Origin: Alphaproteobacteria bacterium
GTDB lineage: Bacteria > Pseudomonadota > Alphaproteobacteria > Rs-D84
Length of the DNA stretch: 37,651 bases
Direction of reading: 5' to 3'
Assembly: GCA_017436325.1 (NCBI GenBank)
Contig: JAFSDI010000035.1
Location: forward strand, 1 to 37,651
Positions within the stretch are counted from its first letter, which is position 1. Each line of letters begins with the position of its first letter. The translations under genes were made by a program, and so were the position numbers. Under the pieces are notes generated by a model. It had not been told where the DNA came from and ran no database searches. It saw only the letters and a list, made by a program, of their open reading frames with translations. Below, piece after piece: positions 2,064 through 19,971 of this stretch.

Positions 2064-2616
2064 AATCTTGGTTCAGGTTTTCGCAGACGAAGCAGATGTT
2101 CTGCGTAAATTATCTGAATTTGACTTCTTGGGCGATAAACGTACGGTGGATACATACTATTACGACCCATTGCGCCCAGATTTACAACCCGACAGCAATG
2201 GCCGCTTGTATGCATGCTGTCGCACACGTGCAAAAGACGGCACAAATTATATCACGTACAAGTACGACCATTTTGACGGTGACACATGGTTGTATTCTGA
2301 TGAATCCGAAACAACCGTTGCTGATATGTCAACTTTGTGCGATATTATGAATGCGCTGGGGTTGCGTGAATTGATACGGATTGACAACCTGAAACGCACA
2401 TACCGTGCGGGCGATTATACAATTGAATTTGAAACTGTGGCAGATCTGGGGCTGTTTTTAGAGGTGGAATATTGCACCGCCGATGATGTGGATGTGGCGC
2501 AAGTGAAATCTCAGATTCAATCATTCATAGACGGATTGGGTTTTGCAGTGTCGCCAGAATTAAATGCTGGCAAACCAGAATTAATGTTGCGCAAGAAACA
2601 ACAGGACGCAGAATAA
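2050..2616 (+). CDS. CYTH-domain protein (CyaB / triphosphatase-like)
   Basis: A protein of 188 aa starts MKEIEILVQV, the opening strand of a CYTH domain, where the family normally has an ExExK motif. Here the lysine is replaced (EIEILVQ), so activity is uncertain. Charged strands follow that are typical of the tunnel fold: TYYYDP at about residues 36-41, CRTR about 57-60, TYKYDHFDGD about 69-78, YTIEFETV about 118-125 and LFLEVEY about 130-136. CYTH proteins bind triphosphates such as ATP, thiamine triphosphate or polyphosphate with divalent metal. GGAGAG precedes the start. It sits directly on the end of the broken Nudix gene. Confidence 0.75.
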   Translation: MKEIEILVQVFADEADVLRKLSEFDFLGDKRTVDTYYYDPLRPDLQPDSNGRLYACCRTRAKDGTNYITYKYDHFDGDTWLYSDESETTVADMSTLCDIMNALGLRELIRIDNLKRTYRAGDYTIEFETVADLGLFLEVEYCTADDVDVAQVKSQIQSFIDGLGFAVSPELNAGKPELMLRKKQQDAE

Positions 2617-19344: not shown

Positions 19345-19542
19345 AAAAATAAAAAACACCACCGTTTCCGGTGGTATTTCCGAGTGTCCCGAAAGGAAGG
19401 AAAGGAGAAAAAGAAATTGGACACTCTAAACTAAAGGTTTTGGGGCCCAGAGTCCAGAGGAGAGAGAATGTAGGAGGGAGTCTGAACCTCTGGTCCCCAC
19501 AGATGCTTTTGGCATCTATCATCGGGTTTAACCCCTTTGACG
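19345..19542 (-). ncRNA. Structured small RNA with pyrimidine-rich loops (novel candidate)
   Basis: A free-standing unit of about 198 bases on the reverse strand has its own promoter and a strong terminator. In order it can form a short GGG-TTAAA-CCC hairpin, then AGATGC/GCATCT, and a long hairpin GGGG-CCAGAG/CTCTGG-CCCC whose loop is rich in CTCC. Next comes an exact GAGTGTCC/GGACACTC hairpin with a C/T-only style loop containing CTCCTTTCCTTCC. Last is ACCACCG-GAAA-CGGTGGT followed by a T run. CU-rich loops of this kind resemble anti-Shine-Dalgarno seeds of trans-acting sRNAs. It does not look like 6S, SRP, tmRNA or RNase P RNA. There is no protein gene in 19314-19737. Confidence 0.72.
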
Positions 19543-19548
19543 ATTATT

Positions 19549-19577
19549 AATATAGTATACAAAAAACGATTCGTCAA
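19549..19577 (-). promoter_or_regulatory. Promoter of the small RNA
   Basis: On the reverse strand TTGACG (19577-19572), 17 bp, TATATT (19554-19549). The spacer end reads GTATAC, the same core that recurs near 19605 and in the palindrome at 19688-19720, so the regulator encoded at 19738 may act here (inference). Confidence 0.6.
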
Positions 19578-19687
19578 GTGTTTTGTCAAAAAAATTTTTA
19601 GTATACTTTTTGTGGTGTGTTTTTTTGTTATAATACCTAGGAAATGGTACTCATTGTTTCCGCAGTAAATATGGAATAAAATCACGG

Positions 19688-19720
19688 TATACTAGAACGC
19701 AAGGATAATATTCTAGTATA
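19688..19720. promoter_or_regulatory. Palindromic operator-like site before the HTH gene
   Basis: TATACTAGAA at 19688-19697 and TTCTAGTATA at 19711-19720 are perfect inverted arms around 13 bases. It lies 17 bases before the start of the small HTH gene. The GTATAC core recurs at about 19555 and 19605, which fits autoregulation and control of the divergent RNA. Confidence 0.6.
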
Positions 19721-19737: not shown

Positions 19738-19971
19738 ATGACCCATGATGATGTGTGGCGTGCAATAGAACGCTTTGCAATAGAGCACGGAATGTCGTGT
19801 TCTGGTCTTGCGAAATGTAGCGGACTTGATCCGACCACATTTAACAAAAGTAAACGGTGGTCAAAGGAAGGACAACCTCGTTGGCCATCAACAAATAGTA
19901 TCTCGAAAATACTGGCATCGACAGGCTCTAAAATCCAAGATTTTACGAAGCATATCGATGCACCGGACTAA
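19738..19971 (+). CDS. Small HTH regulator, 77 aa
   Basis: The sequence reads ...SCSGLAKCSGLDPTTFNKSKR followed by PRWPSTNSISKILAS. It has the same helix-turn-helix module as the truncated gene at 1-178. The protein ends soon after the DNA-binding domain, so it lacks the S24-like C-terminal domain that often follows in this family. GGGAG lies before the ATG (spacing about 7). It is preceded by a palindrome and divergent from the small RNA. A natural short repressor or a truncated S24 regulator are both possible; the clean ribosome site and terminator favour a functional gene. Confidence 0.82.
   Translation: MTHDDVWRAIERFAIEHGMSCSGLAKCSGLDPTTFNKSKRWSKEGQPRWPSTNSISKILASTGSKIQDFTKHIDAPD

Follow-up and report, generated by a model that had tools for sequence, protein, structure and literature searches.

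Enterobacterial sRNAs that control the envelope, such as MicA, RybB and OmrA/B, need Hfq and use seeds at their 5′ ends. In Sinorhizobium, NfeR1 (alpha-r14) consists of three hairpins with differing stems and an ultraconserved anti-Shine-Dalgarno motif, CCUCCUCCC, and acts independently of Hfq (PMC10746234). NfeR1 and CcsR1-4 belong to the cuckoo RNAs, in which CCUCCUCCC stands in hairpin loops (PMC10746234, PMC10253847); in the cuckoo RNA/CcsR case (CIN1 locus), a small DUF1127 protein is co-transcribed. The GTDB order Rs-D84, in which Enterousia has been placed, consists of uncultured bacteria from the gut of farm animals; their genomes measure about 1 Mb, and they have so far been described mainly via their metabolism (2025 paper, PMC12306168).

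Here, we describe a small RNA gene in an Rs-D84 contig of 37,651 nt (JAFSDI010000035.1; hereafter the window). Like the cuckoo RNAs, it has several hairpins with ultraconserved C/U loops on changeable stems, and it comes from the same bacterial class. In contrast to them, it carries CUCCCUCCUACAUUCUCUCUCC and UUUCUUUUUCUCCUUUCCUUCCUUUC and no CCUCCUCCC, its two loops differ from each other and are much longer (22 and about 26 nt), it is restricted to the order Rs-D84 as far as sampled, it has no Rfam match, and its neighbour is a divergent Cro/C1-type helix-turn-helix (HTH) gene instead of a DUF1127 gene. Most likely the RNA works like the cuckoo anti-Shine-Dalgarno RNAs, yet we do not file it as a member because the CCUCCUCCC motif and the DUF1127 link are both absent.

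Results

The RNA is a stand-alone gene

The features of the locus in the window are as follows.

19738..19971, plus strand: divergent gene for a highly conserved 77-aa Cro/C1-type HTH protein, adjoining the RNA in 90/109 loci
19584..19589, minus strand: second TTGACA located 12 nt upstream of the −35 box; most relatives in the alignment have it
19549..19577, minus strand: sigma-70-type promoter TTGACG-17-TATATT, boxes and spacing both kept in aligned relatives
19345..19542, minus strand: small RNA gene, about 190-198 nt, with its own promoter, a fold and conservation across nearly the whole genus
19501..19541, minus strand: two short variable 5′ hairpins (helices 1 and 2), the second absent in some relatives (e.g. 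L013, L017)
19441..19499, minus strand: hairpin 1, with compensatory changes in its stem
19456..19483, minus strand: invariant 28-nt stretch AGACUCCCUCCUACAUUCUCUCUCCUCU, containing the 22-nt loop 1 (19459-19480)
19382..19426, minus strand: hairpin 2, with double changes in 6/8 stem pairs
19391..19416, minus strand: pyrimidine-only core of loop 2, UUUCUUUUUCUCCUUUCCUUCCUUUC, nearly invariant within the genus, with C/U-only variants in other genera
19352..19381, minus strand: intrinsic terminator of 13 pairs with a GAAA loop and a U tract (helix 5 in the covariation analysis)

Promoter and GAAA-capped terminator are both present, as expected from the complete minus-strand transcription unit that the initial annotation had proposed. 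The 198-nt RNA has a predicted folding energy of −70.5 kcal/mol (z = −4.2), and none of 200 shuffled sequences folded as well. No Rfam 15 family reached its gathering threshold, and the permissive matches were unrelated and at chance level. The earlier description of an unannotated structured RNA, unlike common housekeeping RNAs, is thereby upheld. 6S RNA (RF00013) gave no covariance match in the window or in the genome it comes from; this RNA shares with 6S a length of about 190 nt and housekeeping-like conservation, but not the long single hairpin with a central bubble. A short protein encoded by the locus is disfavoured, since the invariant loops lack synonymous changes and indels break the frame.

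In the window, the RNA lies directly upstream, on the same strand, of a P-type ATPase gene (identified by Pfam matches; no relatives were found among viral contigs), an arrangement that would suit a leader or riboswitch of the ATPase. Between the two lie the terminator and a separate promoter-like site, TTGACT-18-TATGAT (19338-19309), just 5′ of the probable ATPase start codon (19286; Shine-Dalgarno sequence AAAGGA), so the promoter previously assigned to the ATPase is in place. Moreover, the ATPase adjoins the RNA in just 2/113 loci. Synteny thus refutes a leader or riboswitch as a general explanation, to which we give hardly any credence, and the RNA is a previously uncatalogued stand-alone gene, independent of the ATPase.

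Loops are invariant while their stems are rewritten

Loop 1, CUCCCUCCUACAUUCUCUCUCC, is C/U throughout its 22 nt save for a central ACA. Loop 2 spans 29 nt in the predicted fold, and its 26-nt core (TTTCTTTTTCTCCTTTCCTTCCTTTC) is wholly C/U, in line with the two pyrimidine-rich loops noted at the outset. The 28-nt stretch of hairpin 1 showed zero substitutions across 126 distinct loci in a scan that tolerated up to six, some of these loci having been gathered with models or patterns biased towards conserved copies. In 37 diverse sequences, 14/17 pairs of the hairpin 1 stem displayed double changes, with a covariation score of 0.47; shuffles gave 0.23 and slid controls no more than 0.25. The covariation check that the initial annotation had called for in related genomes therefore favours structured stems in both hairpins. 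Because stems and loops are conserved in more than 100 genomes, the pattern is far beyond chance. As the loops are invariant and the stems are rewritten with pairing kept, the loops appear to be the functional part, and the stems would matter by pairing alone.

The RNA recurs across Rs-D84

When a genome collection was scanned with 18 bases from loop 2, the matches were mostly uncultured Alphaproteobacteria, several named Candidatus Enterousia. DNA searches found the RNA within the genus and none outside, and a class-wide search with a hairpin 1 model (385 genomes from 276 alphaproteobacterial genera, stricter filters) gave matches confined to this genus. With a core covariance model, the RNA was detected in 164 of the 190 Rs-D84 genomes, including most genera of the family. 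The counterpart in family f4 is a clean stem capped by the loop CAUUCCCUCCUUAUUUUCUCUCUCCUC, and similar hairpins occur in f2, f3 and f5; the loop versions of f2-f5 diverge from the 28-nt stretch by more than six substitutions. Some of these outgroup hairpins score weakly when taken alone (E 0.002 to 0.3), with one genome, a metagenome-assembled genome (MAG) like the other assemblies, sampled per outgroup family. The recurrence of the loop across genera makes a convincing case from sequence that other Rs-D84 families bear a diverged form. In the f4 version (L211, L213-L215, L217, L219, L220), the 5′ hairpin is a different one, capped by the C-rich loop CCGGGACGACCCCUCAUUUCGG; a partial second copy lies downstream in L211 and L213. 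No match was obtained in f6, where the genome was scanned whole with the R1 and R2 models and about a quarter was read locally. This f6 genome contains a strong hairpin (L319, ~2356-2422, plus strand) with a C/U loop, TTTCTTATCTCCTTCCCTTCCCT, and a T run behind it, which is a possible diverged analogue.

The genes downstream of the RNA vary, with the convergent end of an RlmD-like methyltransferase gene in 48/113 loci. Upstream, the 77-aa HTH protein was seen as a neighbour in Enterousia and the closest genera alone; its likeness to Cro/C1 is weak (E = 0.0011, below the Pfam cut-off) and a PDB search gave no match. This protein may regulate the RNA. The 5′ region of its gene contains an inverted repeat of 10 bp, TATACTAGAA...TTCTAGTATA (19688-19720), which could serve as an operator or form a leader hairpin. 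A block at 19636-19648 (ACCATTTCCTAGG; CCTAGGAAATGGT on the plus strand), conserved near the RNA in many Enterousia, directly follows a plus-strand TATAAT and probably corresponds to the start of the HTH mRNA.

A motif complementary to loop 1 is enriched before genes for exported proteins

The main Shine-Dalgarno sequence of start regions in the family is AAAGGA, and GAGAG and AGAGA are enriched as well. The 3′ half of loop 1 contains the complement of GAGAG, and the genes that have GAGAG often encode exported proteins. In an unbiased motif scan of translation initiation regions (TIRs; 966 genes, three genomes), with signal peptides called by a simple hydrophobicity rule and starts set at the longest ATG, GAGAG occurred in 25/210 signal-peptide genes and 21/756 others (P = 7e-7), ranking first of 584 5-mers for this association; AGAGAG ranked first of 476 6-mers. 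When homologues were collapsed, GAGAG still ranked first of about 543 (odds ratio 6.0, P about 3e-6). The association was seen in each genome (P = 0.015, 0.01 and 0.0006) and in f4 (P = 0.011), and an E. coli control gave an odds ratio of 1.07. GAGAG was found in 46 TIRs, compared with two for CTCTC, and this sense-strand excess points to a motif that acts at the RNA level. For one lipoprotein, the AAAGAGAGA site is retained in at least 12 Enterousia orthologues. A lipoprotein family of about 187 aa (DAPYNTTDFAQGGADAPLY; L061 860, L093 2925, L172 1094, all minus strand, and others) has a conserved AAAGAGAGA start region with no classical Shine-Dalgarno sequence.

By pairing energy, loop 1 set signal-peptide TIRs apart from the rest more strongly than any of 120 shuffled loops, which as pyrimidine sequences also separated the gene sets well (mean t −5.5, versus −6.9 for loop 1). 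Over all start regions, the loop energies did not beat reversed or shuffled loops, and the signal-peptide contrast alone exceeded them. Loop 2 gave a signal-peptide contrast no better than that of shuffled loops. No second extended complement of loop 1 was found in the genome: the only match was the RNA gene itself, which rejects a single long antisense target, and matches with three mismatches were at control level. Many short targets are thus likelier than one long one.

The association of GAGAG with signal peptides suggests an envelope or secretome regulon. The main caution comes from genome G039 of f6: searches there detected no such RNA, and AGAGA showed a similar signal-peptide bias (odds ratio 7, P = 0.002); the motif may exist for another reason.

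Discussion

We lean towards the view, built on loop conservation and motif statistics, that this is a trans-acting, Hfq-independent sRNA whose loop 1 would pair at start regions, mainly of mRNAs for exported and envelope proteins, in competition with the 30S subunit. A search for Hfq (PF17209) was negative in nine genomes of the family (G000, G067, G024, G028, G059, G062, G010, G071, G080), while E. coli and Caulobacter controls were positive. The RNA is probably abundant and constitutively transcribed, and would act without Hfq, its two C/U-rich loops being displayed by rigid hairpins. Through loop 1, chiefly the 3′ half UUCUCUCUCC, it is predicted to base-pair with (G)GAGAGAG near the starts of numerous mRNAs, with a preference for messages of exported and envelope proteins, where competition with 30S binding would lead to repression. 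The CCCUCCU half of loop 1, together with loop 2, might pair more generally with purine-rich ribosome sites, and an anti-Shine-Dalgarno reading is plausible, the motif association and pairing-energy contrast lending it indirect support in the case of loop 1. Given the invariant loop and its match to a motif at the starts of exported-protein mRNAs, the RNA is probably a cell-surface regulator. Predicted pairing at start regions of envelope-protein mRNAs is what it would have in common with MicA, RybB and OmrA/B.

The 28 invariant nucleotides exceed the requirement of a seed, which counts against a view based on pairing alone. CsrB titrates CsrA, and sponges of this type carry one short motif many times over. 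In a similar manner, the invariant C/U loops could titrate a pyrimidine-binding protein (a cold-shock protein, S1 or Rho), with GAGAG in mRNAs being unrelated. Such a sponge would account for 28 consecutive invariant positions, the non-C/U ACA among them, a stretch longer than seed pairing requires, and for a loop 2 without pairing specificity. We regard it as unlikely, though a serious contender: two different long loops are present here rather than one repeated short motif, and it leaves unexplained why the complement of loop 1 tops the signal-peptide list.

The remaining accounts seem improbable to us. In one, loop 1 would act as a mimic of the 16S 3′ tail (ACCUCCUUUAU) that targets mRNA Shine-Dalgarno sites or ribosome factors globally, with no envelope regulon. 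The loops CCCUCCUACAUU (f1) and CCCUCCUUAUUU (f4) do resemble the tail GGAUCACCUCCUUUAU, but the tail has no counterpart of the CUCUCUCC half, and AAAGGA, the common Shine-Dalgarno sequence here, is not the best match of loop 1. UCUCUC of loop 1 is complementary to GAGAGA whereas the 16S tail CACCUCCUUUAU is not, the 16S 3′ end being taken from a relative as the source MAG has no 16S. In the other account, which we rate about equally low, GAGAG before genes for exported proteins would be an older element of the order, translational or regulatory in role, and the loop match would stem partly from purine/pyrimidine richness. The bias in f6, where no RNA was detected, and the TTCTCTCTCCT matches there, which resemble reverse complements of start regions, agree with this. 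Against it, loop 1 outdoes every composition-matched shuffle, and an RNA in f6 may have diverged past the reach of the models.

Beyond the preferred reading of a start-region-pairing sRNA, we put forward, tentatively and with some doubt, that one order-wide, Hfq-free RNA sets the output of the exported and envelope proteome in a large lineage of gut Alphaproteobacteria with reduced genomes through a shared GAGAG 'address', with loop and address kept together over the Rs-D84 radiation. For a bacterial sRNA, it is unusual that 28 nt stay identical across many genera when the stem carrying them is rewritten. Should the pairing prove real, it would yield a regulon open to direct testing in bacteria that gave no Hfq match, and would show how sRNAs directed against ribosome sites arise in different alphaproteobacterial lines.
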